Shown here: positions 3,027 to 33,934 of the stretch, piece by piece
Numbering within the stretch: the stretch's first letter is position 1
Layout of the letters: each line of letters starts with the position of its first letter
NCBI RefSeq assembly: GCF_023218175.1
Contig: NZ_JALPTH010000007.1
Span: 62,001 to 126,000 of the forward strand
Origin: Streptomyces lichenis
GTDB lineage: Bacteria > Actinomycetota > Actinomycetes > Streptomycetales > Streptomycetaceae
Length of the DNA stretch: 64,000 nt
Reading direction: 5' to 3'
Position numbers and translations under genes: made by a program
Notes under the pieces: generated by a model
The model's database searches: none
What the model saw: only the letters and a program-made list of their open reading frames with translations
What the model was told of the DNA's origin: nothing

Positions 3027-3027
3027 C

Positions 3028-6737: not shown

Positions 6738-6738
6738 G

Positions 6739-18190: not shown

Positions 18191-20401
18191 ATGCCCAGAC
18201 GACGCACCGTCCTCGCCGGTTCGGCCGCCGCGCTCGGCCTCACCGCCCTGCCCGACCAGCCCCCGGCCACCGCCACCACCCCGGCCTCCGCCGTCCGCCC
18301 GCCCAATGTGGTCCTCGTCCTCGCCGACGACCTCGGCTACGGCGAACTCGGCGCCTACGGGCAGAAGCTGATCGCCACCCCGCGCCTGGACCGGCTGGCC
18401 GCCGAGGGGCTGCGCTTCACCGACGCCTACTCCACCGCCGCGGTCTGCGCCCCCTCCCGCTGCTCCCTGCTGACCGGGCTGCACACCGGGCACGCCACCG
18501 TCCGGGCCAACCCCTCCGGCGCCCAGGGCGCGCTGACCGCCGAGGACACCACCTTCGCCCAGGTGCTGAAGGCCCGCGGCTACCGCACCGCCGTCATCGG
18601 CAAATGGGGCTTCGGCCCCGAGGCCCCCGGCCAGGCCAGCCACCCCACCGACCGGGGGTTCGAGGAGTTCTACGGCTACCTCACCCACGGCCACGCCCAC
18701 CAGTACTACCCCGAGTACCTCTGGCACAACGGCACCAGGGAGACCATCCCCGCCAACGCGGGCGGCAAGCAGGGCGCCTACGCCCCCGAGCTGTTCGCCC
18801 GCCGCGCCCTGGACTTCATCGACGCCCACCGCGCGGAGCCCTTCCTGCTGCTGCTCACCCCCAACACCCCGCACGCGCCCAGCGACAAGGTGCCCGGCTC
18901 CGAGGCCTACGCCGGACGGGGCTGGTCCGCCGCCAACCAGGGCCACGCCGCCCAGGTCACCTTCCTGGACACCCTCGTCGGCCGGGTCGTGGACCGGCTG
19001 CGCGCCCACGGCCTGGAGCGGGACACCGTGCTGCTGGTCACCAGCGACAACGGCCCGCACGAGGAGGGCGGCGCCGACCCGGAACTCTGCGACTCCAACG
19101 GCCCGTTGCGCGGCTACAAGCGCAACCTCTACGAGGGCGGCATCCGGGTCCCGCTGCTCGCCTGGGGCCCCGGCCGGGTCGCCGCGGGCACCACCGCCCG
19201 CCCCACCCCGCTCACCGATCTGCTGCCCACCCTCGCCGAACTCGGCGGCGCCCCCGCACCCGCCGACACCGACGGGCTCTCCGCCGCCCCGCTGCTGGCC
19301 GGCGGCGCGGACGCGGCCCGCCACGGCCACCTCTACTGGTTCCGCGACGAGAAGGGCGTGACCAGCCGGGCCGACAAGGAGGACCAGGGGCGGGCCACCT
19401 GGCTCGCCGAGGCGGTCCGCCGGGACAACTTCAAAGCCGTGCGCTTCGCCCCCGTACGCGACCACAACCTCCCCGACGAGCAGTGGCAGGTGGAGCTGTA
19501 CGACCTCGCCACCGACCCCGGCGAGCGCAGCGACGTGGCGGGGCGGCACCCCTCCACCGCGGCCGCCCTGGTGGCGCTGATGCGCTCCTCCTGGCAGGAC
19601 CAGTACCCCCGCGCCCCCTTCGGCACCCGGCTCACCGCCCCCGCCCTCGCCGTCCCCGGGCGGCCCGCCACCGTCACCGCCACCCTCGCCAACGGCTCCA
19701 CCCGGCCCTGGACCGGCGCCCGGCTCACCCTCGCCGCCCCGGCCGGCTGGACCGTCACCGCCACCGGACCGACCACCGCCGACCGGCTCGCCCCCGGCGG
19801 ACGGCTCACCGCGAGCTGGCAGGTCACCCCGCCGGCCGGCGCCGCCCCGGGCACCCGCTGGCCGCTCACCGCCACCGGCACCGCGACCGCCCCCGGCGGC
19901 CCCCTCACGTACACCGACCGCGCCACCGTCACCACCCCGCCGCCCGCCCCGACCCGGGACTCCTACCTCTCCGACCTTCTCTGGATCTCCGCCGCCAACG
20001 GCTGGGGCCCGGTCGAGAAGGACGCCTCCAACGGCAAGAACGCGGCCGGTGACGGCACCCCCATCGCCTTCGGCTCCACGGTGTACGCCAAGGGACTCGG
20101 CGTCCACGCGCCCAGCGACATCGCCTACCACCTGGGCGGCAAGGGCGGCCGGTTCACCGCCCTGGTCGGCATCGACGACTTCTCCGCCCGGCAGTCCGCC
20201 ACCGGTGCCACCCGCGCCCTGGTATACGGCGACGACCGGCCGCTCCACACCAGCCCGGTGCTCACCGCCGCCGGCGGCCCGGCCACCGTGGACCTGGACG
20301 TCCGCGGGGTGCGGGTGCTGCGCCTGGTGGTCTTGGACGCCAACGGCAACTCCGGCTTCGACCACACCTCCTGGGCACTGGCCCGGGTCACCGTGGTCTG
20401 A
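18191..20401 (+). CDS. Secreted Tat-dependent sulfatase with NEW3 and NPCBM domains
   Basis: A 736-residue type I sulfatase. MPRRRTVLAGSAAALGL is a twin-arginine export signal. The catalytic domain (about 38-440) has metal-ligand DD in VLADDLGYGE, and C86-A-P-S-R90, where the Cys is oxidised to formylglycine by FGE. The domain then shows TAVIGKWGFG and the DN pair in LLVTSDNGPHEE. Residues 470-585 look like a NEW3-type beta domain (VTATLANGSTRPW...LTLAAPAGW) and 595-736 like NPCBM (LSDLLWISAANGWGPVEKD ... YAKGLGVHAPSDIAYHL), both usual in glycan-active enzymes. So a sulfated polysaccharide substrate is likely. It follows the ssu genes after 21 nt. Its 3' end overlaps the convergent ECF gene by 14 nt. 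Confidence 0.9.
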   Translation: MPRRRTVLAGSAAALGLTALPDQPPATATTPASAVRPPNVVLVLADDLGYGELGAYGQKLIATPRLDRLAAEGLRFTDAYSTAAVCAPSRCSLLTGLHTGHATVRANPSGAQGALTAEDTTFAQVLKARGYRTAVIGKWGFGPEAPGQASHPTDRGFEEFYGYLTHGHAHQYYPEYLWHNGTRETIPANAGGKQGAYAPELFARRALDFIDAHRAEPFLLLLTPNTPHAPSDKVPGSEAYAGRGWSAANQGHAAQVTFLDTLVGRVVDRLRAHGLERDTVLLVTSDNGPHEEGGADPELCDSNGPLRGYKRNLYEGGIRVPLLAWGPGRVAAGTTARPTPLTDLLPTLAELGGAPAPADTDGLSAAPLLAGGADAARHGHLYWFRDEKGVTSRADKEDQGRATWLAEAVRRDNFKAVRFAPVRDHNLPDEQWQVELYDLATDPGERSDVAGRHPSTAAALVALMRSSWQDQYPRAPFGTRLTAPALAVPGRPATVTATLANGSTRPWTGARLTLAAPAGWTVTATGPTTADRLAPGGRLTASWQVTPPAGAAPGTRWPLTATGTATAPGGPLTYTDRATVTTPPPAPTRDSYLSDLLWISAANGWGPVEKDASNGKNAAGDGTPIAFGSTVYAKGLGVHAPSDIAYHLGGKGGRFTALVGIDDFSARQSATGATRALVYGDDRPLHTSPVLTAAGGPATVDLDVRGVRVLRLVVLDANGNSGFDHTSWALARVTVV

Positions 20402-21227
20402 TCTCCCCGTTCTCCGGAAGCTCCGGTGCGGGCGGCGGGGAGGGGCTGAACCGCACCGGGGCCTGGAAGCGGGCCTTGCGGGCCGCCCGCCGGAACACCG
20501 CCAGTACGGCCGGGCCGGCCAGCAGTACGCAGACGAAGTTGGTCACCGCCCGCCCGGTGTCCCAGCCCAGCGAGGTCGCCACATCGAAGGCGAGGTACCG
20601 CTGCCACTGCTCGGTGAACGGCAGCCCCGGCAGATAGGCGAGCGAACTGCCGGGGTCCACCGAGAACGGCCAGAACGACAGATTGAGCAGAAAGCCGAAG
20701 AGGTACCCGGACAGCGAGCCGTACACCGCGAGCATCAGCACCTCGCCCCGCCCGGTCGCCCGGGGCAGCAGCCCGGCGAGCATCCCCACGAAGGCGCAGC
20801 CGAACATCTGGTACGGCATCCAGGGCCCGACCCCGCCGGTGATCAGCGCCGAGGCGAACAGCGAGGTGCAGCCCAGGGTGAAGCCGAACCCCGGCCCGTA
20901 CACCCTCCCCGCCAGCACCAGCAGGAAGAACACCGTCTCGATGCCCGCGGTGCCCGCGCCCAGCGGCCGCAGCGCCGCGTTCACCGCCGACAGCACCCCC
21001 AGCATGGCCAGCGCCTTGGAGTCCACCCCGCCCTCGGCGATCTCCGACACCACCACGCAGAGCACCAGCACCAGCAGCACCCCGAAGATCAGCGGCGGCG
21101 CGTAGTTCGAGCCGAACGTGCCCGGGGCGACCACGAACGGCCAGAAGAAGGCGACCAGCCCGAGGAAGGAGGCCAGCACGATCACCACCCCCGCGCGCGG
21201 GCCGATCCGCACCGCCACGGTCCTCAC
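20388..21227 (-). CDS. ECF transporter substrate-binding membrane subunit (S component), probable cobalamin
   Basis: A 279-residue polytopic membrane protein with six or more hydrophobic segments, last gene of the riboswitch-controlled operon. The middle part (LGVLSAVNAALRPLGAG, then FVGMLAGLLPRATGRGE) has the Gly/Ala-rich helix pattern of ECF S components, and the next genes upstream are EcfA-type ATPases and an EcfT, completing an ECF module. It is longer than many S components (about 180-220), with a Pro-rich C-tail. GTG start overlaps the ATPase stop (GTGA). Cobalamin as ligand is inferred from the riboswitch upstream of the operon. The last 14 nt overlap the convergent sulfatase. Confidence 0.75.
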   Translation of the reverse strand: MRTVAVRIGPRAGVVIVLASFLGLVAFFWPFVVAPGTFGSNYAPPLIFGVLLVLVLCVVVSEIAEGGVDSKALAMLGVLSAVNAALRPLGAGTAGIETVFFLLVLAGRVYGPGFGFTLGCTSLFASALITGGVGPWMPYQMFGCAFVGMLAGLLPRATGRGEVLMLAVYGSLSGYLFGFLLNLSFWPFSVDPGSSLAYLPGLPFTEQWQRYLAFDVATSLGWDTGRAVTNFVCVLLAGPAVLAVFRRAARKARFQAPVRFSPSPPPAPELPENGEIRPR

Positions 21228-22879
21228 GCCGACCCACCGCCGTCCAGCACGGCCGACACCTGGCCGGTGGTGAGATACGGCAGCGGGGCGAGCACCTTCG
21301 CCACCTGCGGGGCGAACACCGGCGAGGCGGTGATCACCTCGCTGGTCGGCCCGTCCGCCACGATGTCCCCCTCCGCCATCACCACCACCCGGTCCGCCGC
21401 CCGGGCCGCGAACTCCACATCATGGGTGGAGACCACCACCGCCCGGCCCTCCGCCGCCAGCGCGTCCACGATCCCGATGAGCTGGGCCTTGGCCGTGTAG
21501 TCCAGGCCCCGGGTGGGCTCGTCCAGCAGCAGCACCCCGGGCGCCGCCGAGAGCTGCACCGCCAGTACCAGCGCCAGCTTCTGCCCCTCGGAGAGGTCCC
21601 GTGGATGGATCGCGTCCGGGATGCCGGGCGCCAGCCGGTCCAGGATCTCCCGGGCCGACGGACCGCCCGACTCGGCGCCCGGGACCGCGGCGTCCGCGTC
21701 CGCCTGCTCCAGCTCCTCCTTGACCGACTCCCGATAGAGCAGGTCCGTCGGGGTCTGCGGCACCAGCCCGACCAGCCGGCGCGCCCCGGCCGCCGGCAGC
21801 TCGCGCGGATCGGCCGTACCGCCCTCGGCGCCGGCCACCACCCGGACCCGCCCGGCCCGGCGCGGCCCCGAGCCCTGGAGCGCCCAGAGCAGCGAGGACT
21901 TGCCCGAGCCGTTGCGCCCCATCAGCGCGGTCACCTCACCGCCGCGCAGCTCCAGCCCCACTTCCCGTACCGCGGGCACCCCCTGGTAGGCGACCGACAC
22001 CCCGCGGGCGGTCAGCAGCACCGGACGCGGCCGCTCGGCGGGCGGCCGTACGGCGGGCACCTCCGCCCCCCGCAGCCTCTCCCGCAACGGGGCCGCCGAG
22101 CGGCGGGCGTCCCGGATGGACAGCGGCAGCGGCTCCCAGCCGGCCGCCCGGCCCAGCTCCACCACCGGCGGGGCGATGGCGGAGGTACGGAACACCTCGG
22201 CGGGCACCCCGGACTCGACCCGGCCGCCGCCGGGCAGATGGATCACCCGGTCCGCGTACTGCACCACCCGCTCCAGCCGGTGCTCGGCCAGCAGCACCGT
22301 CACCCCCAGGTCGTGCACCAGCCGGGTCACCGCCGACAGCACCTCCTCGGCCGCCGTCGGATCCAGCGCGGAGGTGGGCTCGTCCAGCACCAGTACCCGG
22401 GGGTGGGCGGTCAGCACCGAGCCGATCGCCACCCGCTGCTGCTGGCCGCCGGACAGCTCGTACAGGGCCCGATGGCGCAGATCGGCCAGCCCCAGCAGAT
22501 CGAGGGTCTCCTCCACCCGCTTGCGCATCACCGCCGGGGCCACCGCCAACTGCTCCATGGCGTAGGCCAGTTCCTCCTCGACGGTGTCGGTGACGAAACC
22601 GTCCAGCGGGTCCTGCCCCACCACCCCCACCACATCGGCGAGTTCGCGCGGCGGATGTGCGGCGGTGTCCCGGCCGTCCACGGTCACCCGCCCGTACAGG
22701 GTGCCGCCGGTGAAGTGCGGCACCAGTCCGTTCACCGCGCCGAGGAGGGTGGACTTGCCGACGCCCGTGTGCCCGACGACCAGGGCGAGTTCGCCCTCCT
22801 CGACGGTAAGGTCCACACCCTGAAGCACCGGCTCGGTGGCCCCGTCGTAGACGACACTCACCTGCTCGAAGACGATCAT
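21224..22879 (-). CDS. Fused double ATPase of an ECF vitamin importer (EcfA-EcfA')
   Basis: A 551-residue protein holding two complete ABC ATPase domains. Domain 1 (residues 1-235) has Walker A GHTGVGKST, signature ELSGGQQQRVAIGS and Walker B RVLVLDEPTSALDP. Domain 2 (about 285-530) has Walker A GRNGSGKSS, a divergent signature LSEGQKLALVLA and Walker B VLLLDEPTRGLDY, with STHDVEFAARAADR. In ECF importers two ATPases form a heterodimer; here they are fused. ATG overlaps the EcfT stop (ATGA), and the stop overlaps the S-component start. Confidence 0.92.
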   Translation of the reverse strand: MIVFEQVSVVYDGATEPVLQGVDLTVEEGELALVVGHTGVGKSTLLGAVNGLVPHFTGGTLYGRVTVDGRDTAAHPPRELADVVGVVGQDPLDGFVTDTVEEELAYAMEQLAVAPAVMRKRVEETLDLLGLADLRHRALYELSGGQQQRVAIGSVLTAHPRVLVLDEPTSALDPTAAEEVLSAVTRLVHDLGVTVLLAEHRLERVVQYADRVIHLPGGGRVESGVPAEVFRTSAIAPPVVELGRAAGWEPLPLSIRDARRSAAPLRERLRGAEVPAVRPPAERPRPVLLTARGVSVAYQGVPAVREVGLELRGGEVTALMGRNGSGKSSLLWALQGSGPRRAGRVRVVAGAEGGTADPRELPAAGARRLVGLVPQTPTDLLYRESVKEELEQADADAAVPGAESGGPSAREILDRLAPGIPDAIHPRDLSEGQKLALVLAVQLSAAPGVLLLDEPTRGLDYTAKAQLIGIVDALAAEGRAVVVSTHDVEFAARAADRVVVMAEGDIVADGPTSEVITASPVFAPQVAKVLAPLPYLTTGQVSAVLDGGGSA

Positions 22880-24057
22880 CCGCGGTCCCTGGTGGTTCGG
22901 TGGTGGTCCGGTACGGGGGCGGGGCGGTGCGCCCGGGGCGGCGGCGCGGCCAGTCCGGCGGCCCCCGCCAGCAGGATCGCGGCCGCCGGGACCGGTGGCA
23001 GCGCCGGCCAACCCAGCGGGTAGATCGACGGATTGAGGTCGGCCGCGTCGAAGCCGGTGCCGGCGAACAGCACCACCGCCGACACCACCCCGCATCCGGC
23101 CACCGCCCACTCCGCCGCCCGCCAGGGGTCCGGCCGGTAGGAGGTACGGGTCACCCGGCGGCCGCCCAGCCGCAGCCCGGCCACACAGAGCAGCGCCCCC
23201 GCGCCCAGCGCCGGGAAACCCAGCGGCGCGGGCGCCGTGGCGTCCAGCAGCCCGTACGCCCCGGCGCACAGCCCGCACATTCCGGACAGCATCAGCACCC
23301 CGGTCACCCGCCGGGAGCGTGCGGTCACCGTACCGGCCCGCCCGTACCCCCGCGAGTCCATCGCCGCCGCCAGCCGCAGCGACCGCTCCAGCGCGTCCTC
23401 CAGCACCGGGACCACGATCCCGCGCAGAGCGCGAAGTCCCTTGCTGCGACCGGCCCGCAGCCGCCGGGCCCGGTGCACCCGCTGCACGCTCTGCACCAGC
23501 TGCGGGGCCACGCTCAGCGAGACGGTGACCGCCACCCCCAGCTCGTACAGCGCCCCGGGCAGCACCCGCAGCGCCCGCTTGGGATTGGCCAGGGTGTTGG
23601 CCGCGCCGATGCAGCAGAGCATGCAGGCCAGCCGCAGCCCGTCGGTGGCGGCCGACAGCAGTGCCTCCAGCGACACCGGCCCGCCGAGCCGGATCCCGGC
23701 GTACCAGTCGGGGGTGGGGATACGCGGCAGGGCGAAGAGGAAGTGGTCGGTGGGGGTGGTCCCGGTGGCGAACACCGCCCGGAACACCACCCGGACCGCC
23801 ACCACCGCCAGCGCCAGCCACAGGTAGTAGCGGAACCCCCGGGCCCAGGGCGCCTCGGTGCGGCGGGCGGTGACCACGAAGCCGAGCACCGCCAGCACCA
23901 GGAAGAGCAGCAGCGGGTTGTTGGTGCGGCTGACCGCGGTGGCCAGCGCCAGCGCCCAGATCCACCAGGCCACCGGGTGCAGTTGGCGGGGCAGCCGGCG
24001 CCCCCGGGCGTCCGGGGCCGCAGTGGTACTTGGCGTGGCCGGGGTGGTACGGGACAC
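22876..24057 (-). CDS. ECF transporter transmembrane subunit EcfT
   Basis: A 393-residue membrane protein with a core of five to six hydrophobic segments and the EcfT coupling signature AAAMDSRGYGR, preceded by a long amphipathic stretch (RVHRARRLRAGRSKGLRALRG region) that contacts the ATPases. Early family marks are HPVAWWIWALALATAVSRTN. EcfT links the double ATPase to the S component. The start is a GTG with AGGCGG upstream, 8 nt past the preceding stop. The C-terminal 110 residues form extra membrane segments beyond the usual EcfT length of about 260. Confidence 0.88.
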   Translation of the reverse strand: MSRTTPATPSTTAAPDARGRRLPRQLHPVAWWIWALALATAVSRTNNPLLLFLVLAVLGFVVTARRTEAPWARGFRYYLWLALAVVAVRVVFRAVFATGTTPTDHFLFALPRIPTPDWYAGIRLGGPVSLEALLSAATDGLRLACMLCCIGAANTLANPKRALRVLPGALYELGVAVTVSLSVAPQLVQSVQRVHRARRLRAGRSKGLRALRGIVVPVLEDALERSLRLAAAMDSRGYGRAGTVTARSRRVTGVLMLSGMCGLCAGAYGLLDATAPAPLGFPALGAGALLCVAGLRLGGRRVTRTSYRPDPWRAAEWAVAGCGVVSAVVLFAGTGFDAADLNPSIYPLGWPALPPVPAAAILLAGAAGLAAPPPRAHRPAPVPDHHRTTRDRG

Positions 24058-24065
24058 CGGGCCGC

Positions 24066-25010
24066 CTACTCGGTACGGCGCCGGCGCCTGGCCGCGTACC
24101 CGGCACCGCCGCCGAGCACCAGCACCAGCGCGGCGGTCGCCACCACCGGCCACACCGACCCCGGATCGTGGGCCGCCTCGGCGGCCGGGGCCGCGTCCAC
24201 CACCTTCGCTCCGTCGGTCGGGGTCTTCTTCGGCGCGGTGGCGACCGAGGCGGACGGCGAGGGCGAGGCGGATGCCGAAGGCGACGCAGACGGGGTGGCC
24301 GTCGGCGCCGGCGTCTTCTCCGGCTGCTTCGGCTTCTCCGGCTTCTTCGGAGGTGTGGCGGCGGGGGTACGGGTGGCCGGGGGCCGGGCGGCCTGGTCCT
24401 GGCCGCCGCCGTCGGCAGGCCGGGGCGCGGGCGGCCGGGGCTGACTCCCGCCGGTGGGGCGCGTGTTGCGGGCGCGCAGCTGGTCCGGGGTGACGCTGGG
24501 GCGGCCCTCGGTGCCCTCGATGTCCGTCCCACCGAAGATCCACAGGTCCACGCTGCCCGGCTTGGGCCGGTAGGCCATGGCGCCGAGCCGGCTGTACTCC
24601 CACCTGTTCTCGCCCGGGTCGGCGTGCCAGTACGACCAGTAGGCGGTGGCCGGGGGAGTGAGGACGCAGTCCTCGTCGGCGGAGGTCGGGTACTGCCGCC
24701 CGCCCTGGTGCCCGCTGTAGCCGATCCGGCAGATGAACGCCGGACCGTCGTGCCCGGTGCCGGTGGTGCGCCAGCCGCCCTGGTTGAGCAGCTCGAAGCC
24801 GGTGGTGGGGGTGGTGCCGCAGGAGCGGTAGACCGGGCCGCCCCAGTGGCTGAAGTCCACCGCCAGCACCACCCCGGCGGAGGTGGTGCACGTCCCGATG
24901 GGCTGCGGGGCCGCCGAGGCGGGGGCCGCCGTCGCGGTGAGCGCCCCGGCGGTGACCGCCAGCGCGGCCGCGCCCCGGGCCAGCGCCCGGACGGTACGGG
25001 GGGAGCCCAT
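24066..25010 (-). CDS. Secreted, membrane-anchored protein with four-Cys transcobalamin-beta-like domain
   Basis: A 314-residue exported protein. A signal peptide (about 1-33) ends in A-S-A-A. Residues 37-165 form a domain with four Cys and the core VVLAVDFSHWGG, TTGFELLNQGGW, FICRIGY and YWSYWHADPGENRWEYSRLG, about half identical to the head of the 936-residue protein upstream. The order (hydrophobic strand, a tvl-DaL-like helix, a C-x-I-G strand, aromatic YWSYW hairpin) resembles DUF4430/transcobalamin beta domains. I recall such proteins being named SCO2322 family in S. coelicolor. Then come a Pro/Lys/Ser stalk, one membrane helix and an Arg-rich tail. The ATG overlaps the upstream stop; GTG at 25013 is an alternative. 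Confidence 0.75.
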   Translation of the reverse strand: MGSPRTVRALARGAAALAVTAGALTATAAPASAAPQPIGTCTTSAGVVLAVDFSHWGGPVYRSCGTTPTTGFELLNQGGWRTTGTGHDGPAFICRIGYSGHQGGRQYPTSADEDCVLTPPATAYWSYWHADPGENRWEYSRLGAMAYRPKPGSVDLWIFGGTDIEGTEGRPSVTPDQLRARNTRPTGGSQPRPPAPRPADGGGQDQAARPPATRTPAATPPKKPEKPKQPEKTPAPTATPSASPSASASPSPSASVATAPKKTPTDGAKVVDAAPAAEAAHDPGSVWPVVATAALVLVLGGGAGYAARRRRRTE

Positions 25011-27820
25011 CACCGCTCCCCGTGCGCCGTGCGCTGCCGGCGGGCGTACGCCACGGTCCACCAGCCGGCCAGCGACAGCAGCGCGGCCAGGGCGGCGAGC
25101 GCCCCGACCCGGACGCCGGTGGCGGCCAGGGAGCCGCTGCCGCCCTGGGCGGTGGCCCCGGTGCCGCCGCCCGTGGCCGCCGTACCCCCGGTGTCACCCG
25201 GGGTGACGATCACCGGGGCCGAGGCGGCGGTGGAGGGCGCCGGGCCGGGTGGCTGCTCGACGGTGCCGGTCAGGTCCCCGGTCAGGGTGGCGAAGGAGAT
25301 CCCCTCGGCGCCGCTGACCGCCTGGGCGGAGGCCCGGATGTCCGAACCGGGCTCCCCGGCGGCCACGGTGAACCCGCCGTCCTTGTTCTGCTGGCCGGCC
25401 AGGAACTTCCGCGCCTTGATGATCTGGTCCCGGTACTTCCCGGCGTCCAGGGCGAATCCCTGGATGGCGAGGGCGGTGGAGTTCACCGAGGAGCCGGTGT
25501 CCGAGGCGCCCAGGAAGCCGCCGTCCGACTGCTGCTTGCCCGCCAGGAAGGCGAGCGCCTTGTCCACCGCCCGCTCGGCCCGCTCGCCCCCGGCCAGGTC
25601 CACGGCCATCGCGGCCATCGCGGTGGAGTCCACGTCGGAGTTGCCGGTGCTGGGGATGATGCTGGGCCAGGCGCCGGTCTTCCGGTCCTGGATGCCGAGC
25701 AGATACGCCACCGGCGCCTCGGCTGCCTTCGTCTCACCCGCACGCAGCTGGGCCATGATCCCCAGCGACTGGCCGAAGACCGAGTCGACATAGGTGTAGG
25801 CGCCCGGGCCCGCGCACTTGCGGGGGTCGGACTCGATACGGGCCTCGCACACCAGCTTGCCGAGCCCGGCGATCAGGTCCTGCCCGCCGAAGTTCCGCGG
25901 GTCGCGGCCCACCACCTCGGCCAGCAGCGCCGTCTTTCCGGTCTTGCCGCTCATCGGGTACTCGGTGCCCAGACCGGTGTAGTTCCGGATGGTCTTCCCG
26001 TTGGGGTCCTTGCCGAGCCCGTCCAGGAAGTCCACGATGCGCCGCAGCGTCTGCGGGTCCTCGCCGGTGGCGGCGAGGGCGAAGGCGCCGTCGATGGTCA
26101 GGCCGTGGTCCGCCACGGTGCGCGAGATGTCGAAGTAGTAAACGCCCCGCTGGAGGTTGGCCGGCCTGGTCAGATAGGCCACGCCCCGGGCGAGGTCCGG
26201 CCCCTGCCCCGGGAGCGGGGCCGGCTTGGTGGGCTTGGGCCCGGGCGTGGTCGGCTTCGGGCCGGGCTTGGTGGGCTCGGGGCCCGGCTCGGTGGGCTTC
26301 GGTCCCGGGCCCGGCTTCCTCGCGGTCAGCTCGACCAGGCTGGTGCCGGCGTCCGCCAGCAGTACCGGAGCGGTGGCGTTGACCGTGGTGTCGGCCCCGT
26401 CCTCGAAGCCGAAGCCGCCCTCGGGGCGCTGCTGCCGGGAGAGCCAGGCCACCGCGGCCTCGGCCCTGGCCCTCTCACCGAGGGCGCGCAGCGCCTGCGC
26501 GGCCGCCGCGGTGACCGGCGAGCTGCCGCTCGGCGCCCCGGTCCAGCCCAGGTAGGAGCCGTCCGGCCGCTGCTCCTTCTTCAGATAGGCCAGTGCCTTG
26601 GCCACGGTGGCGTCCTGTCCGCCGGCCCGCTTCAGCACCAGGGCGGCCAGAGCGCTGGTGCCCGGGTCCGGGTCGCAGTTCTCGCCCTCCCGGATGAGGA
26701 CATAGGAGAAGCCGCCGTTGGGGCACTGCTGGGCCACCAGCCGCCGGACCGCCGGGGCGGGCGGCCGGACACCGGCCCGCTCCAGGGCGAGCAGGGCGTG
26801 GGCCTGGCCCTCGGCGGAGGAGGCGTTGACGAAGTCACCGGGGGCGGTGCAGCCCGCCCCGGGTCCGGTGGCGCACACCTGGGCGGACAGGGTGGCGATC
26901 AGGTCCTTGCCGCCGAAGGCCCGGGGGTCGCCGCCGGAGGTCTGGGCCACCAGGGCGAGCCGGGCCAGCGCGGCCGCGTTCGGCGGCTGGTCGGCGCCGT
27001 CCGGCCAGCCGTAGCCGGTGGTGGTGGCGGGCGAGGAGAGGAAGGCAGTGACCTTGCTCAGCTCGGGCGACTGGCTCTTGGCGGACGCCAGGGCGAAGGC
27101 CGCCTCGGTGGTGGCGTGCAGATTGGGGTCCTCGGCGTCCGGGTCGACGACCCGCTCGCCGTCGGTCAGCCGGCCGAGCAGCCAGCGGGCCGCCTTGGGC
27201 ACATCCACCCGGCCCGGCGGCACCTGCGGGTCGCCGCCGCCCGGGTCCGGCTCCTCGCCGCCCTTGGCCCGTACGTCGTCCGGGGTGAAGGTCGGCTTGC
27301 CGGTGGTGCCGGCGACATCGGTGCCGCCGAACACCCAGGCGTCCACCTCGCCCGGCTTCAACTCACGCGCCATGGCGCCCTTGTTGCTGTACGACCAGTG
27401 GTCCTGGCCGCGGGGCGCCACCCAGTAGGACCAGTAGGCGGTGGCCTGCGGGGTGAGGACGCACTTCTCCTTGTCCGGGGTCGGGTACCGCTTGCCGCCG
27501 TGGAAGCCCTGGTACCCGATCCGGCAGAGGAACCCGGGCCCGTCGTGCTGGGTGCCCTCGGTGCCGAACCCGGCCTCGCGCAGCAGCTCGTAGCCGGTGG
27601 TCGGGGTGGGGTCGCAGCCCCGCTCGACCTTGCCGCCGAAGGGCCCGAAGTCCACCGCGACGACCGCGCCCTTGACCGCGCTGCACTCCTCCACGGGTGC
27701 GGCGACCGCCTGCCCCGCCCCCGTCGCGTACGCCAGGCAGGCGCCGAAGGCGAGCAGCGCCGCCGACACCAGCGACAGCGGTCTCCGGGCGCGCCGCCCC
27801 GATCCGATTCCCGTCCCCAC
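25010..27820 (-). CDS. Large secreted wall-anchored protein: four-Cys domain plus two alpha-toroid domains, LAATG sorting motif
   Basis: A 936-residue surface protein, first in the operon behind a cobalamin riboswitch. Signal peptide about 1-41; 44-175 the four-Cys beta-like domain also found in the next gene; about 205-500 and 555-870 two prenyltransferase/squalene-cyclase-type repeat domains (units such as RPDGSYLGWTG, QRPEGGFGFEDGAD, QQSDGGFLGASDTGSSVNS, QQNKDGGFT), the fold used by the alpha domain of transcobalamin. A KPGPKPT-type repeat linker separates the toroids. The tail has LAATG at 898-902, a hydrophobic helix and an Arg-rich end, a class E sortase signal. I infer that it binds corrinoids at the wall; no ligand evidence exists. 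GTG start, GAGGGG upstream. Confidence 0.8.
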   Translation of the reverse strand: MGTGIGSGRRARRPLSLVSAALLAFGACLAYATGAGQAVAAPVEECSAVKGAVVAVDFGPFGGKVERGCDPTPTTGYELLREAGFGTEGTQHDGPGFLCRIGYQGFHGGKRYPTPDKEKCVLTPQATAYWSYWVAPRGQDHWSYSNKGAMARELKPGEVDAWVFGGTDVAGTTGKPTFTPDDVRAKGGEEPDPGGGDPQVPPGRVDVPKAARWLLGRLTDGERVVDPDAEDPNLHATTEAAFALASAKSQSPELSKVTAFLSSPATTTGYGWPDGADQPPNAAALARLALVAQTSGGDPRAFGGKDLIATLSAQVCATGPGAGCTAPGDFVNASSAEGQAHALLALERAGVRPPAPAVRRLVAQQCPNGGFSYVLIREGENCDPDPGTSALAALVLKRAGGQDATVAKALAYLKKEQRPDGSYLGWTGAPSGSSPVTAAAAQALRALGERARAEAAVAWLSRQQRPEGGFGFEDGADTTVNATAPVLLADAGTSLVELTARKPGPGPKPTEPGPEPTKPGPKPTTPGPKPTKPAPLPGQGPDLARGVAYLTRPANLQRGVYYFDISRTVADHGLTIDGAFALAATGEDPQTLRRIVDFLDGLGKDPNGKTIRNYTGLGTEYPMSGKTGKTALLAEVVGRDPRNFGGQDLIAGLGKLVCEARIESDPRKCAGPGAYTYVDSVFGQSLGIMAQLRAGETKAAEAPVAYLLGIQDRKTGAWPSIIPSTGNSDVDSTAMAAMAVDLAGGERAERAVDKALAFLAGKQQSDGGFLGASDTGSSVNSTALAIQGFALDAGKYRDQIIKARKFLAGQQNKDGGFTVAAGEPGSDIRASAQAVSGAEGISFATLTGDLTGTVEQPPGPAPSTAASAPVIVTPGDTGGTAATGGGTGATAQGGSGSLAATGVRVGALAALAALLSLAGWWTVAYARRQRTAHGER

Positions 27821-27961
27821 CCCGGCCCCTCAAGGTCGGCCGTGCGGTGTGGCGAACGTGGCAGGAGGCCCCGGGCGGCCGAAACGGGCACCGGGGCTGG
27901 TCGAACCACGCCGTAGTCCGCGACGGCGCTTCTCGCAACAGTGCTCTTCACGACACTGCTC

Positions 27962-28048
27962 CCAGCCCAGGCATTCCGGCTCGCCCGCGAAAGGACGCGG
28001 GCCTACGGTTGCGGGTCAGCGCCGGATTCCGACCGGCTTCCCCTGGTA
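27962..28048 (-). ncRNA. Cobalamin riboswitch ahead of the ECF/toroid operon
   Basis: Read on the minus strand, the core GGGGAAGCCGGTCGGAATCC, then GGCGCTGACCCGCAACCG, and further on GAGCCGGAATGCCTG is the classic B12-riboswitch order (GGGAA..GGT..GAATCC..CTG-CCCGCAACGGT..GAGCC-GAA-GCC). A GCCCGCG/CGCGGGC stem lies between. It ends about 140 nt before the GTG at 27820, leaving room for an expression platform. Confidence 0.9.
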
Positions 28049-28206
28049 CTGGCTGTTACTGGCTTACTGTCTGACTCTGTGACAGTCAGTCCAACTCCTC
28101 TGGCTGTCAGCCGGATTACACACGGCGGCGCGACGGCCGTCAAGGTGGCATGGCTCTCACCGCTCGCCCACCGGTCCCCGTGGCCAGGGCCGCGCTCCGG
28201 CGGTAC

Positions 28207-28314
28207 CGTCCCAGAGCTGCCACATGGGGGAACCCGGTGCGAATCCGGGGCTGACGCGCAGCGGTGTGGGGCGGCCGGAAGGCCGCACCGAGCCCGAATG
28301 CCCATGGGCGGTGC
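28207..28314 (+). ncRNA. Cobalamin riboswitch ahead of the toroid-DUF4430 gene
   Basis: Plus strand: ATGGGGGAACCCGGTGCGAA, then TCCGGGGCTGACGCGCAGCGGT, a GC stem, and GAGCCCGAATGCCCATGGG. The conserved blocks are in order; the CTGACGCGCAGCGGT block departs slightly from the usual CTG-CCCGCAACGGT. The CATGGG/CCCATG ends can pair as the closing stem. It ends about 107 nt before the ATG at 28421. Confidence 0.88.
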
Positions 28315-28420
28315 ACCACCAGGAAGCCGTACCTCGCGCTCGGACGGCGGCCCACCCGTGCCCGGCCGCCCACGGCGGCGACGGCACGCCCGGCCGGCGT
28401 CCCCCACCAAGGAGCAGGCC

Positions 28421-29851
28421 ATGTCCCGTCCGCACCCCGCGTCCCGTCCCCGCGCCGCCAGACGCCTGGCGTTCGCACTGCCCGCCGCCCTCGGCGCCTT
28501 CGCGCTGACCGTGCTGCCGGCCGCCGCGACCTCCACCCCGGCGCAGATCGCCACCTCCAAGGCCAACGGGGTCGCCTACCTCAAGACCCTCCAGGCCGCC
28601 GACGGCTCCTACGCCGGCTCCGGACTGTCCAACGAGTGGGCGTTCAGCGCCTTCGCCGCCGCGGGCACCGCCGCGGTGGACGTCACCCCGGGCGGTGACA
28701 CCAGCAAGAACGCCCGCACCGTCTACCGCAACCTGCTCTCCACCGCCGGCTGGCCGTCCGGCTCCCCGGTGGTCACCGACTACGAGCGGGCCGCCCTCAA
28801 CGCGTACGCGGCCGGGATCGACCCGGCCCGGGTCAGCGCCTCGCGCAATCTGATCGCCCATATCTACGGCTACTGGCAGACCGCCGAGGCCGGCTACTTC
28901 GGCCCGTCCGCCACCTACAACGGCACCGTCTTCGCCGCCCTGGCGCTGCGCGGCGCCAAGACCCAGTCCGGGACCGTCCGCGTCCCGCAGGCGCTCACCG
29001 ACAAGATGGTCACCCGCATCCGGGCCAACCAGCACAACGACGGCGGCTGGAACCACAGCAAGGCCGAGGGCGACCCCACCGCCCTGAACCAGCCCGGCGA
29101 CATCGACATGACCGGCGCCTCGATGGCCGCGCTCTGCGTCTCCGGGGTGCCGAACACCGACACCGACATCGTCCAGGCGAAGAACTTCCTCAAGTCCAAG
29201 CTGGTCAACAACACCGGTGCGTTCAACGCCATGTTCGGAGTCAACACCAGCTCCAACGCCTGGGCCGTCTCCGGGCTGAACGCCTGCGGCATCAACCCGC
29301 AGACCGGGGACTTCCTCACCCCGGCCGGCAAGACCCCGATCGACTTCCTGCGCGCCCAGCAGCTCACCCCCGGCGGCGGCTTCAAGTACCTGCCCACCGA
29401 CACCTCGCCGTCCGCCTACTCGTCCATCGACGCGTTGCGCGCGGTGGCCGCCGGCGGCTTCACCGCGGCCCCGCCGGTGCCGGTCACCTCCGGCGCCCCG
29501 CAGTGGGCCGCCACCAGCGCCTTCACCGCCGGGACTGCCACCAAGCTGGGGCTCACCGTGGACGACGGCACCGGCAACCTCAGGGTCTGCTCGGTGTCGA
29601 TCACCCCGACCGGGACCACCACCACCCTCGGGGACGTGCTGAACGCGGCCACCACCGCGGCCACCCCCGCCGGCTGCGTCACCAGCGTGATCCCGTCCTC
29701 CGGCACCGGCACCGTCACCGCCGTCAACGGGACCGCGAACAGCGGCTCCTCCACCTGGAAGGTCAGCGTGGACGGCTCCGCCTTCGCCGCCGCCGCCCGC
29801 AACAAGGTGATCAACGCCGGAGACACCATCGCCCTGCGCTACGGCTCCTGA
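28421..29851 (+). CDS. Secreted transcobalamin-like protein: alpha-toroid plus C-terminal DUF4430-like domain
   Basis: A 476-residue exported protein directly controlled by a cobalamin riboswitch. Signal peptide about 1-36 (ends A-A-A). Residues 45-350 are alpha/alpha-toroid repeats (VAYLKTLQAADGSYAGSGLS, NQHNDGGWNHSKAEGDPTAL, AQQLTPGGGFKYLPTD). Residues 375-476 form a DUF4430-like beta domain: TATKLGLTVDDG, TTLGDVLNAATTAATPAGC, STWKVSVDGSAFAAAARNKV and AGDTIALRYGS. An alpha toroid followed by this beta domain is the architecture of animal transcobalamin and intrinsic factor. Unlike its neighbours it has no wall anchor and may be released. ATG with AAGGAG 9 nt upstream. Confidence 0.82.
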   Translation: MSRPHPASRPRAARRLAFALPAALGAFALTVLPAAATSTPAQIATSKANGVAYLKTLQAADGSYAGSGLSNEWAFSAFAAAGTAAVDVTPGGDTSKNARTVYRNLLSTAGWPSGSPVVTDYERAALNAYAAGIDPARVSASRNLIAHIYGYWQTAEAGYFGPSATYNGTVFAALALRGAKTQSGTVRVPQALTDKMVTRIRANQHNDGGWNHSKAEGDPTALNQPGDIDMTGASMAALCVSGVPNTDTDIVQAKNFLKSKLVNNTGAFNAMFGVNTSSNAWAVSGLNACGINPQTGDFLTPAGKTPIDFLRAQQLTPGGGFKYLPTDTSPSAYSSIDALRAVAAGGFTAAPPVPVTSGAPQWAATSAFTAGTATKLGLTVDDGTGNLRVCSVSITPTGTTTTLGDVLNAATTAATPAGCVTSVIPSSGTGTVTAVNGTANSGSSTWKVSVDGSAFAAAARNKVINAGDTIALRYGS

Positions 29852-29865
29852 ACCGGCGGCCGTCC

Positions 29866-29893
29866 GGGGGCCGGGCACCCGCGCCCGGCCCCC
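29866..29893. terminator. Bidirectional hairpin terminator between convergent DUF4430 genes
   Basis: GGGGGCCGGGC (29866-29876) and GCCCGGCCCCC (29883-29893) form a perfect 11-bp stem with a 6-nt loop, between the convergent stops at 29851 and 29916. It can serve both strands. Confidence 0.8.
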
Positions 29894-29915
29894 CAAGCCC
29901 TACGGCTGGATACGG

Positions 29916-30404
29916 CTAGAAGGAGGTCCAGGTGAAGGCCACCTGGTCACCGGCCTTCAGCTGGAACTGGCAGCCGCCGACCGGGGTGGACACCCCGTTG
30001 ACCGAGATGTTCCAGTACGCCGAGGCCCCGCCGCTCACGTTCTTGATGGTGTCCACCGAGAAGTCGTCAAAGGACGGATACCAGGTCCCGTCCCAGGTGA
30101 AGTGGCGCTTGCGGGCCGCGTCGTCCAGCGCCGCCGTGGGTGTGGGCACCGCCGACGGGTGGGCGCCGCCGTTGGTGCCGTCGCACTTGTGGGTGCCGCC
30201 GGTGGCGGTGGTGACCTCATGGCCCTTGGTTCTGATCCGGCCCGTGAACAGGGTGCCGTCCGGCCCCTGCACGGTGAGGCTCACCTTGATCGGGGCGTTG
30301 GTCCTCGGGGCGGGCTTGGCGTGCGCAGTGGCGGGCGCGCCGGTGAGGGCGAGACCGAGCACGGCGGACGGTATGACGGCGCGGCGGACGAGAGCGGTGC
30401 GCAT
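29916..30404 (-). CDS. Secreted DUF4430 (transcobalamin beta-like) protein
   Basis: A 162-residue exported protein: signal peptide about 1-33 (LGLALTGAPATAHA), then a single DUF4430-type domain, with KVSLTVQGPDGTLFTGRI strands, TKGHEVTTATGGTHKCDG, a variable loop, and the diagnostic SAYWNISVNGVSTPVGGCQF and LKAGDQVAFTW. Two Cys could pair. It lies convergent to the toroid-DUF4430 gene. No cobalamin riboswitch motif was seen in its own upstream region, but a CCCTCCGG/CCGGAGGG hairpin (30436-30455) sits about 30 nt before the ATG. Start set by a GGAGG site; a longer upstream frame is Arg/Cys-rich and unlikely. Role in B12 handling is inferred from domain and neighbours. Confidence 0.75.
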   Translation of the reverse strand: MRTALVRRAVIPSAVLGLALTGAPATAHAKPAPRTNAPIKVSLTVQGPDGTLFTGRIRTKGHEVTTATGGTHKCDGTNGGAHPSAVPTPTAALDDAARKRHFTWDGTWYPSFDDFSVDTIKNVSGGASAYWNISVNGVSTPVGGCQFQLKAGDQVAFTWTSF

Positions 30405-30667: not shown

Positions 30668-32224
30668 TCAGTCCACGTCAGGGTGGAGCACCAGGTGCTC
30701 GCGGTACGCCCCCGGTGTGAAGAACAGCGGCAACTCCTGCGCGAGAGCCGTCCGTGCGAACAGCTGTCGGGCCTCGGCCACCGGGGCCGACGGGTCCTCG
30801 GCGAGCAGTGCCGCCGCCTCCGCGTCCAGCAGCCGGACCACCTCGGCCCGCTCCACCACCCGGTGGCGCAGCCACTGCCAGACCTGGGTGCGGGCGATCT
30901 CCGCGGTCGCCGCGTCCTCCATCAGGCCGTCCAGCACCACCGCGCCCCGCCCGCCGATCCAGGCGGCGTAGTAGCGCAGCGCCACCGCGATGTCGGAGCG
31001 CACCCCCTCCGGGGTGGGCCGTCCACTGATCCGGCGCACCGACAGCAGGTCCCGGGCACTGACCTCCACATCCTCCCGGGTGCGGCCCAGCTGGTGCGGG
31101 TCGCCGCCGAGGACGGTGCCGAACGCCTCCCGGCAGACTGGTACCAGCTCCGGGGAGGCGACCCAGGAGCCGTCGAAGCCGTCCTCCGCCTCGCGCTCCT
31201 TGTCGCGCCGCACGGCGGCCGACGCGGCCTCCCGGGCGGCCGGATCGGAGCCCGGCACCTCGGCCGACATCGCCCCGATGGCGTGCGCCCCGCGCCGGTG
31301 GCAGGTGCGCACCAGCAGCTCGGTGTAGGCGCGCATGAACGGGGCGGTCATGGTGACCCGGTCCCGGTCCGGCAGCAGGAAGTCGGTGCGGTGCCCGAAG
31401 GTCTTGATCAGGCTGAACAGGTAGTCCCAGCGGCCCGCGTTGAGCCCGGCGGCGTGCTCGCGCAGCTCATACAGGATTTCCTCCATCTCGAAGGCGGCGG
31501 TGACGGTCTCGATCAGCACGGTGGCGCGCACGGTGCCGCGCGGGATGTCCAGCAGCCGCTGGGCCAGGAGGAAGACGTCGTTCCAGAGCCGGGCCTCGTA
31601 GCGGTTCTCCAGCTTGGGGAGGTAGAAGTACGGTCCCTGCCCGGCCCCGATCTGCCGCCGGGCGCAGTGGAAGAAGTACAGCCCGAAGTCGGCCAGCGCG
31701 GCCGGCACCGGACGGCCGTCGAACTCCAGGTGCTCCTCGTCCAGATGCCAGCCGCGCGGCCGGACCATCAGGGTGGGCCGGCCGCCCGGGGCCGCTGCCC
31801 GGCCGGTCACATCGCGCAGGCAGAGCTGCCCGGCGACGATGTTCTCCCAGGTCGGCGCGGTGGCGTCCTCGAAGTCCGCCATCCAGACATCGGCCCCGGA
31901 GGCCGCCGCCCGCTCGGCCGTGCCGGGCGTCGGCGGGCCGGTGATCTCCACCCGCCGGTCCACCAGTCCCGGCGCGGGCGGCGCCACCCGCCAGGAGGCG
32001 TCCGCGCGCACTGCCCGGGTGGCGAGCGGGAAGTCCAGCGGGGAGCCCGCCGCCAGCCGGATCGCCTGCCGCCGGCGCTCCTTGAGCAGTTCGCGGCGGC
32101 GCTCGGCGAAGGCGGCGGCCAGCCGGCCGACGAAGTCCAGGGCGGCCGGGGTGAGGATCTCGTCATGGCGGTCGCCCGGAGCCGCGAGGACGCGGACGCG
32201 GCTGTCCAGTGCGCTGAGGGTCAT
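30668..32224 (-). CDS. aceB: Malate synthase A
   Basis: A 518-residue cytoplasmic enzyme of the glyoxylate shunt, condensing glyoxylate and acetyl-CoA to malate. Marks of the short (A-type) form are VWMADFEDATAPTWENIVAG, LMVRPRGWHLDEEHL, PYFYLPKLENRYEARLWNDV, ATVLIETVTAAFEMEEILYE with catalytic-region RWDYLFSLIKTF, and AIGAMSAEVPGSDP. Length fits MSA. It is 31 nt downstream of isocitrate lyase on the same strand, so the two shunt enzymes form an operon. The RamB-like regulator is divergent to them. Confidence 0.96.
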   Translation of the reverse strand: MTLSALDSRVRVLAAPGDRHDEILTPAALDFVGRLAAAFAERRRELLKERRRQAIRLAAGSPLDFPLATRAVRADASWRVAPPAPGLVDRRVEITGPPTPGTAERAAASGADVWMADFEDATAPTWENIVAGQLCLRDVTGRAAAPGGRPTLMVRPRGWHLDEEHLEFDGRPVPAALADFGLYFFHCARRQIGAGQGPYFYLPKLENRYEARLWNDVFLLAQRLLDIPRGTVRATVLIETVTAAFEMEEILYELREHAAGLNAGRWDYLFSLIKTFGHRTDFLLPDRDRVTMTAPFMRAYTELLVRTCHRRGAHAIGAMSAEVPGSDPAAREAASAAVRRDKEREAEDGFDGSWVASPELVPVCREAFGTVLGGDPHQLGRTREDVEVSARDLLSVRRISGRPTPEGVRSDIAVALRYYAAWIGGRGAVVLDGLMEDAATAEIARTQVWQWLRHRVVERAEVVRLLDAEAAALLAEDPSAPVAEARQLFARTALAQELPLFFTPGAYREHLVLHPDVD

Positions 32225-32255
32225 CGGTCTCTCCTACGGGGTGGGGGCGGCCGGC

Positions 32256-33539
32256 CTAGTGGAACTGCTCCTCCTCGGTGGAGCCGGTCAGCGCCGTGGT
32301 GGAGGAGTTCGGGTTGACGGCGGTGGAGACCAGGTCGAAGTACCCGGTGCCGACCTCCCGTTGGTGCCTCACGGCGGTGAAGCCGTCCTTCTGGGCGGCG
32401 AACTCCCGCTCCTGGAGCTCGACATAGGCGGTCATCCCGTGCTCGGCGTAGCCCTTGGCCAGGTCGAACATGCCGTGGTTGAGCGAGTGGAAGCCGGCCA
32501 GGGTGATGAACTGGAAGCGGTAGCCCATCGCGCCCAGCTCCCGCTGGAATGTGGCGATCTGGTCGTCGTCCAGCGCGGCCTTCCAGTTGAAGGACGGCGA
32601 GCAGTTGTAGGCCAGCATCTGGTCCGGGTACCGCGCGTGGATCGCCTCGGCGAACTCACGGGCCTGCGCCAGGTCCGGGGTGCCGGTCTCGACCCAGATG
32701 AGGTCCGCGTACGGGGCGTAGGCCAGGCCGCGGGCGATGACCGGGCCCATCCCGTTGCGCACCCGGTAGAAGCCCTCCGCGGTGCGTTCGCCGGTGACGA
32801 ACTCGGCGTCCCGCTCGTCCACGTCGCTGGTCAGCAGGGTGGCGGCGAGCGCGTCGGTGCGGGCGATGACCACCGTGGGCACATCGGCGATGTCGGCCGC
32901 CAGCCGGGCCGCGTTGAGGGTGCGGATGTGCTGGGAGGTGGGCACCAGCACCTTGCCGCCGAGGTGGCCGCACTTCTTCTCGGAGGCCAGCTGGTCCTCG
33001 TAGTGGATCCCGGCCGCGCCCGCCGCGATCATGGCCTTGGTCAGCTCGAAGGCGTTGAGCGGGCCGCCGAACCCGGCCTCGGCGTCGGCGACGATCGGCG
33101 CCAGCCAGTCGGTGGTGTCGCCATCGCCCTCGGAGGTGGCGATCTGGTCGGCGCGCAGCAGCGCGTTGTTGATCCGGCGTACTACCTGCGGCACCGAGTT
33201 GGCCGGGTAGAGGCTCTGGTCGGGGTAGGTGTGCCCGGCCTGGTTGGCGTCGGCGGCCACCTGCCAGCCGGACAGGTAGATCGCCTGGAGCCCGGCCTTC
33301 ACCTGCTGGACGGCCTGTCCGCCGGTGAGCGCGCCCAGCGCGTGGACGTAGTCGCGCTCGTGCAGCAGGCGCCAGAGCCGTTCCGCTCCGCGCCGGGCGA
33401 GGGTGTGCTCCTCGCGGACGCTGCCGGACAGCCGCAGCACCTCCTCCGGGCCGTAGGTGCGCTCGATGCCCTGCCACCGGGGGTCGGTGGCCCAGCGCCG
33501 CGCCAGTTCCCCGGCCGCCGTCGTCTTCGCCTCTGCCAT
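32256..33539 (-). CDS. aceA: Isocitrate lyase
   Basis: A 427-residue enzyme splitting isocitrate into succinate and glyoxylate. The catalytic motif KKCGHLGG is present, with [20 protein letters not shown] (metal site), [27 protein letters not shown] and [14 protein letters not shown]. Length is standard for the bacterial short form. ATG is preferred; an in-frame GTG 9 nt upstream is possible, because a GAGGAG site sits close to both. Upstream lie candidate operators for the RamB-like regulator, consistent with induction on acetate or fatty acids. Confidence 0.97.
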
Positions 33540-33934
33540 GGCCTTCACCGTCTCCTCGGGTATCCCTGATGCCAACCTCGCGGCTGCTGTCCGCGAAGGT
33601 GGCACTCCGTGTCGCAATCTCCCTGCGCGGCCCGCCGCACCCCCACCGGATGAGCTGAGCAATGCTGCCCGGACCGGCACCTCGCAGGACCCCGGATCCC
33701 CGACGTCAGGGCATGAATCGCGCCCGGTGTCCCGCCCTTGCCGCCGGAGGTCCGGCGGGCCGTGAGACGACTGTGGCACTGGCACTGAGTGCCATCAACT
33801 ATGGACACCTGCCAACTTCTGTGAATCTTTCCGTCCCGATCTGCCAACTTTGCCAAGGCTCCGACGCCCCTTACGGCCCGTACGCTGACAGCCGACGGCG
33901 AGGGACGGACGCACGGCCACGGAGGAGCGCGACA
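33540..33934. other. Divergent promoter region between isocitrate lyase and the RamB-like gene
   Basis: This 395-nt region has no gene. The stretch 33780-33860 is AT-richer than the rest and holds the operator-like repeats listed separately. A second TGGCACTCCGTGTC motif at about 33600 resembles the palindrome at 33780-33794. Confidence 0.6.
33780..33856. promoter_or_regulatory. Candidate RamB-type operators and palindrome
   Basis: TGGCACTGAGTGCCA (33780-33794) is a perfect palindrome around TGA. TGCCAACTT occurs twice, at 33810-33818 and 33842-33850, 32 nt apart (about three helical turns); the second reads TTGGCAAAGTTGGCA on the minus strand, close to the AAAGTTTGC core I recall for RamB of Corynebacterium. 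These lie between aceA and the regulator and could control both. Confidence 0.5.

Follow-up and report, generated by a model that had tools for sequence, protein, structure and literature searches.

A divergent, riboswitch-headed locus of Streptomyces lichenis encoding a predicted transcobalamin-like protein and an ECF importer

The locus, its conservation and its riboswitches

A 64,000-nucleotide (nt) stretch of contig NZ_JALPTH010000007.1 from Streptomyces lichenis (genome 7.1 Mb), hereafter called the window, contains a divergent pair of transcription units, placed back to back and each headed by its own cobalamin riboswitch (Table 1), which are considered here as a putative system for corrinoid capture and uptake. 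The minus-strand unit is a run of five genes, encoding a 936-amino-acid (aa) protein, a 314-aa protein, EcfT, a fused EcfA-EcfA pair and an S component; two EcfA domains, EcfT and the S component of an energy-coupling factor (ECF) importer are thus found within one operon. The S component matched only PF12822 in Pfam, not a CbiM-type component as expected of a cobalt importer of the CbiMNQO type. The plus-strand gene encodes a secreted protein with an alpha-toroid and a DUF4430-like domain, hereafter called the toroid-DUF4430 protein, and a stand-alone DUF4430 gene is convergent to it. This gene content, which was listed in an initial annotation made from the sequence, was confirmed, the ECF parts by Pfam.

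Among 295 genomes sampled from the genus, 29 (the present one among them) had a relative of the toroid-DUF4430 protein, which was full length in 27. At 20 same-genus loci a divergent gene for a protein with a four-cysteine (4-Cys) domain and toroids was always present (20/20), the whole minus operon was present in 19 and the stand-alone DUF4430 gene occurred within the stretch in 8. A wider scan of named genomes gave 63 loci with a relative, mostly from Streptomyces but including Kitasatospora, Actinacidiphila, Micromonospora rubida, Dactylosporangium siamense and one further actinomycete. The gene block, for which a search across actinomycetes had been proposed, recurred here with the divergent 4-Cys/toroid gene within 1.5 kb in 60 of the 63 loci, the stand-alone DUF4430 gene in 23 and all six minus-side elements in 47, several contigs ending early.

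Some loci differed in detail. In Actinacidiphila epipremni (L180) the toroid-DUF4430 gene occurred without the minus operon and a stand-alone DUF4430 gene lay upstream instead. Five loci (L177, L181, L182, L183 and L192) had extra, distant 4-Cys and toroid matches (36-39 % and 31-37 % identical, respectively) downstream of the toroid-DUF4430 gene, on the strand opposite to it. At three others (L174, L188 and L193) the block was present with matches split over several frames, as from decayed genes or poor assembly.

In covariance-model searches the plus-strand riboswitch exceeded the gathering cut-off of RF00174 (31.5 bits) and the minus-strand element fell just below it, with an E value of 1.8e-5 in a 1 kb search and of 0.0012 in the whole window. 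These two were the only matches to Rfam in the whole window at E ≤ 1, and no riboswitch belonging to the stand-alone DUF4430 gene was found in that search. Elements ahead of the 4-Cys/toroid operon did exceed the cut-off at other loci, for example L117, L119, L126 and L173. With one mismatch allowed, core motifs occurred on both strands within the upstream 1.5 kb in 59 of the 63 loci; for 679 control windows taken elsewhere in these loci the figure was 3.4 %. A strict core was present on both strands in 18 of the 20 same-genus loci. At the Rfam cut-off a cobalamin riboswitch was found in the divergent gap of all 11 loci scanned of these 20 (on both strands in 5), and in the gap of all 8 scanned among 9 non-Streptomyces loci, the ninth being L180, where the minus operon is missing. 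The two riboswitches that the initial annotation had proposed are therefore considered real, being conserved in the same gap across genera. Of 8 scanned loci that carry the stand-alone DUF4430 gene, three (L111, L114 and L119) had a separate cobalamin riboswitch for it.

The exported proteins and their likeness to transcobalamin

The toroid-DUF4430 protein was modelled with AlphaFold2 from 45 sequences, with a mean predicted local distance difference test score (pLDDT) of 89.8 and a predicted TM-score (pTM) of 0.90. When the model was compared with 350,542 PDB chains in Foldseek, ranks 1 to 14 were transcobalamin (12), intrinsic factor (1) and haptocorrin (1), the alignments spanning 465-488 columns and hence both domains, whereas rank 15 was a toroid enzyme. 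The protein thus has an N-terminal alpha-toroid, a C-terminal beta-grasp domain and a signal peptide (by eye), as in the transcobalamin/intrinsic factor family; no anchor was seen. The transcobalamin architecture suggested from the sequence agrees with the predicted fold. Its score with PF14478 (DUF4430) was 21.3 bits, just below the cut-off of 23.8, or 24.7 bits when the DNA stretch was searched, and this family matched 8 of the 45 relatives at E ≤ 0.01; the stand-alone DUF4430 protein scored above the cut-off (29.6 bits). Sequence searches of the PDB with the 936-aa protein, the toroid-DUF4430 protein, its alignment and the S component gave mostly toroid enzymes, chance-level rows or nothing.

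The model of the 936-aa protein (42 sequences, pLDDT 84.2, pTM 0.53) has two separate toroids, at model residues ~159-453 and 494-801, which aligned with toroid enzymes in VIA-align at Z ~22-25. In the fold search with this model the matches listed were all of the toroids, and transcobalamin was not among them. Four cysteines within the first 110 residues compared were conserved in 53 of 53 homologues. An LAxTG motif, a sortase motif of Streptomyces, was kept in 50 of the 53, with MAxTG in one and PVTG in two. In the 936-aa protein it is followed by a hydrophobic stretch and a basic tail, as in sortase-anchored wall proteins, and anchoring to the wall is predicted. The 314-aa protein, for which no Pfam family was found, has a single 4-Cys domain, 57 % identical to that of the 936-aa protein, and ends in a hydrophobic segment and basic tail that are conserved; its export signal and anchor were recognised by eye. 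The initial annotation was correct in describing two secreted 4-Cys proteins here, although the two toroids and the LAATG C-terminus of the larger one had been overlooked. In total the minus operon encodes two toroids and two beta-like domains, and the conserved neighbourhood agrees with the earlier observation that the ECF genes share one operon with two of the exported proteins.

The 4-Cys domain, which is absent from Pfam, looks related to DUF4430, a relation with moderate support that falls short of proof. It was aligned by hhalign with a broad DUF4430 profile, drawn from 30 loci across the phylum, with a probability of 71 % with all 30 rows and 79 % without the mis-extracted row L239, over 73-78 columns running from the helix to the end of the domain. 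A reversed control and 60 column-shuffled controls reached at most 1.3 %, and the two recognised DUF4430 sequences of this locus gave 83 % and 62 % on the same profile. Narrow DUF4430 profiles gave no significant match, whether stand-alone-like (4.7 %), toroid-DUF4430-like (0.2 %) or mixed (1.1 %), and none of 26 4-Cys members scanned against Pfam matched PF14478 at E ≤ 10 or any other relevant family. The predicted order of secondary structure elements in the 4-Cys domain (b b a b b b b, from DSSP on the AlphaFold2 model) fits the formula S1 S2 H (hairpin) S3 S4 S5 given for transcobalamin-type SLBB domains (PMC1949818). A relation to DUF4430 of this domain, called beta-like in the initial annotation, was thus supported by the broad profile and not by the narrow ones.

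Table 1 Features of the locus, with positions in the window
Feature	Position	Strand	Basis
ECF S component, 279 aa, putatively corrinoid-specific	20388..21227	-	PF12822, 31.4 bits (cut-off 30.7)
EcfA-EcfA fused ATPase pair	21224..22879	-	Two ABC_tran stretches; ECF_ATPase models below cut-offs
EcfT transmembrane coupling protein, start codon inferred	22876..24057	-	CbiQ, PF02361, E 2.2e-12
314-aa secreted protein with C-terminal membrane anchor and one 4-Cys transcobalamin-beta-like domain, toroid-free	24066..25010	-	
936-aa wall-anchored (predicted) protein with 4-Cys beta-like domain (~42-170), toroid 1 (~199-493) and toroid 2 (~534-841)	25010..27820	-	
Sortase-type LAATG motif, with a hydrophobic stretch and then a basic tail after it	25115..25129	-	Sequence of the 936-aa protein
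Cobalamin riboswitch core, 149 nt ahead of the minus operon	27970..28042	-	RF00174, 29.6 bits
Cobalamin riboswitch core, 117 nt ahead of the toroid-DUF4430 gene	28227..28303	+	RF00174, 34.6 bits
Secreted toroid and DUF4430-like protein, 476 aa, transcobalamin domain order	28421..29851	+	AlphaFold2 and Foldseek
Secreted stand-alone DUF4430 protein, convergent to the toroid-DUF4430 gene	29916..30404	-	PF14478, 29.6 bits

The locus is flanked by a gene for a sulfatase-like protein (18191-20401, plus strand), beside a substrate-binding protein and ATPase of a nitrate/sulfonate-type importer, and by malate synthase-like and isocitrate lyase-like genes of the glyoxylate bypass (30668-33785, minus strand) with a regulator-like gene on the opposite strand, all recognised by eye.

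A second operon and the distribution of both forms

The same genome contains a second riboswitch-headed ECF operon (L017; C33:14000-26000 of this genome, operon at 1043-6948 of that stretch, minus strand; riboswitch at C33:20932-21019, minus strand). It includes members of the NCBIfam families SCO2321 (NF053823, a toroid protein, 513 bits) and SCO2322 (NF040672, 224 bits), for neither of which NCBIfam names a function. The S component and EcfT of this operon are each ~50 % identical to their counterparts in the window.

SCO2322 corresponds to the 4-Cys domain with its halves exchanged, the tryptophan-rich half coming first and the half with V-V-D / C / L / C-x-I-G second. Profiles were built from 27 unpermuted and 33 permuted rows (32 distinct, since L048 and L070 are the same gene). 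In the native order hhalign gave two partial matches, of 40 and 59 columns, in swapped order. When the permuted profile was rotated by 48-72 columns (20 rotations scanned), a single match over 101-102 of 120 columns was obtained, with E 2.8e-22. The four cysteines occupied corresponding places in both alignments on inspection. As independent evidence, a single frame in genome G013 encodes a protein that matches the SCO2322 profile in swapped order, its C-terminal part first and its N-terminal part second. Pairwise comparison by BLAST and Smith-Waterman supported one half (z 6.0), the other being no better than shuffled sequences (z -0.2), and the claim of permutation therefore rests on the profiles. 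By these, the SCO2322 family is a circular permutation of the 4-Cys domain. Against the DUF4430 profile, SCO2322 gave 11.7 % rotated and 7.8 % native with row L239; once this row was dropped, the rotated form reached 76 % across 75 columns and the native form 69 % across 44, so that this comparison alone is weak proof of permutation. In Streptomyces misionensis (L148, 2-15761) the unpermuted operon and the secreted protein are found with permuted SCO2321/2322-EcfT-EcfA genes a few kb downstream.

Outside the genus, 19 loci of the unpermuted type and 19 of the permuted type were compared, gene order being determined by tblastn with the proteins of this genome. The beta gene lay immediately before EcfT in 17 of 19 loci of either type. 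The order toroid-beta-EcfT was seen in 13 unpermuted-type and 6 permuted-type loci, and in 17 of 30 short loci. The beta-EcfT slot is thus common to both forms, while the toroid neighbour is frequent and may be either not universal or too divergent for tblastn. At several further loci (L026, L031, L035, L037 and L043, also L214, L224 and L228) EcfT/EcfA-like genes immediately follow a 4-Cys gene, and no toroid was matched in the vicinity; these are perhaps ECF systems for another ligand.

Across 197 evenly sampled genomes of the class, 36 were counted as having the unpermuted form and 68 as having the permuted form. The former number excludes 12 of 48 genomes, in which a SCO2322 match was also present and the match to the unpermuted form was confined to the half that it has in common with SCO2322; for the latter only SCO2322 matches over the cut-off were counted, as in 68 of the 80 genomes with a match at E ≤ 1e-4. 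Within the genus the permuted form was present in 16 of 16 genomes and the unpermuted form in 3. In the 181 genomes outside it the two never occurred together (33 unpermuted, 52 permuted, 0 both; Fisher p 7e-6), as alternatives would. The cobQ gene was missing from 67 of 101 genomes with either form compared with 20 of 96 with neither (Fisher p 1.3e-10, uncorrected for kinship, and with some genomes incomplete). The unpermuted form alone was only weakly linked to this absence (22 of 36 without cobQ, p 0.027). That carriers tend to be without cobQ fits scavenging. Several small genomes of one family (f25; 1.2-1.5 Mb) gave no cobQ match and had the permuted form (G025, G044, G062, G091 and others) or the unpermuted form (G125 and G155); these actinomycetes are likely B12 auxotrophs.

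Proposed function and alternative explanations

The initial annotation had the exported proteins and the ECF module replace BtuF/BtuCD. This was not borne out, since the same genome encodes a BtuF-like protein, a FecCD permease and an ATPase directly behind a further cobalamin riboswitch, and also carries cobN, cobQ and cobA. The NCBIfam scores of this binding protein and ATPase were below every cut-off shown, so that the B12 specificity of the set rests on its riboswitch. With such a set and B12-synthesis genes present, the system described here is to be seen as an addition rather than a replacement.

The locus is probably a surface system for transcobalamin-like corrinoid capture which feeds a dedicated ECF importer, a scavenging route repressed by cobalamin. 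When cobalamin is scarce both riboswitches would permit expression, and the secreted toroid-DUF4430 protein would bind corrinoid outside the cell. The wall-anchored double-toroid protein and its membrane-anchored 4-Cys partner would bind or receive corrinoid at the surface, forming or sharing clefts between toroid and beta domain; as the minus operon encodes two of each, a beta domain may close on the toroid of another chain. The S component would then take over the corrinoid for import by EcfT and EcfA-EcfA of the same operon, in this genome as an extra route beside the BtuFCD-like transporter and B12 synthesis. Both the riboswitch linkage and the distribution of cobQ favour corrinoid uptake.

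Several observations weigh against this interpretation. The TM-scores of the top 14 Foldseek matches were only 0.35-0.46, with root-mean-square deviations of 18.7-20.1 Å and identities of 11-15 %; the low TM-scores reflect a relative placement of the two domains that differs between the model and transcobalamin. The toroid alone aligned better with terpene cyclases (VIA-align Z 24.2) than with intrinsic factor (Z 19.5), the matches listed being all of the toroid part, and for this reason the argument from the models is placed on the combination of domains and not on the toroid itself. The N-terminal domain of the 936-aa protein was modelled at only moderate confidence. Outside the genus, only 7 of the 19 unpermuted-type loci had a same-strand riboswitch of the cobalamin clan ahead of them at the curated cut-off; for the permuted type the number was 14 of 19, which counts in favour of corrinoid uptake. 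No toroid match was found by tblastn ahead of the beta gene in 11 of the 19 permuted-type loci, including those of small genomes in which a riboswitch lies just before the beta gene (L197, L202, L205 and L209). Finally, the genus keeps cobQ (16 of 16 genomes in the class sample, this genome included), and the link to auxotrophy is thus not applicable to the host.

Toroid and beta domains occur in equal numbers in the minus operon (2:2), the SCO2321/2322 pair (1:1) and the plus-strand protein (1:1), and one ligand may accordingly be enclosed jointly by two separate chains. It is conceivable, though on balance doubtful, that such a "split transcobalamin" on separate anchored chains, with the beta half permuted in the SCO2322 branch, passes corrinoid to a dedicated S component and that the module, in one form or the other, is the main entry of B12 in many auxotrophic actinomycetes, including lineages with small genomes. 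The 11 permuted-type loci in which no toroid was matched before the beta gene make this less likely as a general rule.

The ECF module could instead import cobalt ions for B12 synthesis, in the manner of CbiMNQO, with the exported proteins being unrelated or regulatory. EcfT does match the Pfam family CbiQ, described as a cobalt transport protein, and the CbiM of this genome is likewise located behind a cobalamin riboswitch. That CbiM is, however, already encoded elsewhere in the genome, the S component of the window matches ECF_trnsprt and not CbiM, large toroid and beta-grasp proteins suit a bulky ligand rather than an ion, and most relatives in the class sample are in genomes without cobQ. 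Import of cobalt is thus considered very unlikely. A role of the exported proteins in hoarding corrinoids, withholding them from competitors or sensing them outside the cell, independently of the importer, would agree with the signal peptide and apparent lack of an anchor in the plus-strand protein, and with a host that can probably make its own B12. It is made improbable by the predicted anchoring, at wall or membrane, of the two exported proteins that share an operon with the ECF genes, and by the beta gene's place next to EcfT, immediately ahead of it, at 34 of the 38 loci compared outside the genus.

The ligand itself might be another metabolite linked to the riboswitch, such as a lower-ligand base or an incomplete corrinoid, because the riboswitch class does not fix the species transported; B12 precursors were also allowed for in the available text of Burroughs et al. 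(2007, PMC1796856). Such a ligand is considered unlikely in view of the domain order, which the protein shares with transcobalamin, intrinsic factor and haptocorrin; cobalamin is present in part of the structures listed for these.

Relation to known systems and significance

The plus-strand protein resembles the animal transcobalamin, intrinsic factor and haptocorrin in being secreted and in having an N-terminal alpha-toroid and a C-terminal beta-grasp domain. It differs from them in being bacterial, controlled by a riboswitch, encoded beside an ECF importer rather than acting with a receptor, and only 11-15 % identical, and the minus-strand proteins have the beta-like domain first with two toroids, or alone. 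The general kind of system is already known as a prediction. As far as the available text goes, Burroughs et al. (2007, PMC1796856) proposed that secreted SLBB proteins, many of them carrying a fused toroid and encoded alongside CbiO/CbiQ, scavenge B12 or its precursors, with the transcobalamin clade mainly in low-GC Gram-positive bacteria, also in planctomycetes and some euryarchaea, and usually in hosts without B12 synthesis. Secreted or anchored proteins with an SLBB domain, or here a putative one, toroids before or after this domain, paralogues among these proteins and CbiO/CbiQ neighbours are common to both. The present locus represents an actinobacterial 4-Cys branch outside Pfam, with twin riboswitches, an LAxTG anchor, two toroids, an S component and a permuted sister; the words "Streptomyces" and "riboswitch" occur 0 times in the available text of that paper (PMC1796856).

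ECF-CbrT is also an ECF-type B12 importer, according to the part of the source available (PMC5997447). Kinship of the S component in the window to CbrT was not established, since it matched no PDB chain in a sequence search. CbrT is not known to work with extracellular binding proteins. Surface lipoproteins of gut Bacteroides with BtuB also capture B12 at the surface and feed an importer, in Gram-negative cells with outer-membrane transporters, as stated in the available parts of the sources (PMC10404256, PMC6143338).

The second operon contains clear SCO2321 and SCO2322 members, and the 4-Cys domains of the window are the unpermuted counterpart of SCO2322. In the open-licence literature of PubMed Central, the actinobacterial form, the riboswitch pair, a function for SCO2321/SCO2322 and the circular permutation were not found; no paper there dealt with SCO2322-SCO2326, and only one, on a delivery peptide, with SCO2321. 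What is new is thus an actinobacterial variant of a predicted type of B12 capture, together with the moderately supported relation between the 4-Cys domain and DUF4430 and the permutation of SCO2322.

These results provide a testable function for two actinobacterial families without one, SCO2321 and SCO2322 (68 of the 197 class genomes had an SCO2322 match above the cut-off), and for the unannotated 4-Cys domain. They reveal that a domain probably of the transcobalamin type has undergone circular permutation, offer a concrete candidate for B12 acquisition by actinomycetes without cobQ, and would add a genus amenable to genetics to the bacterial relatives of the animal B12 carriers.

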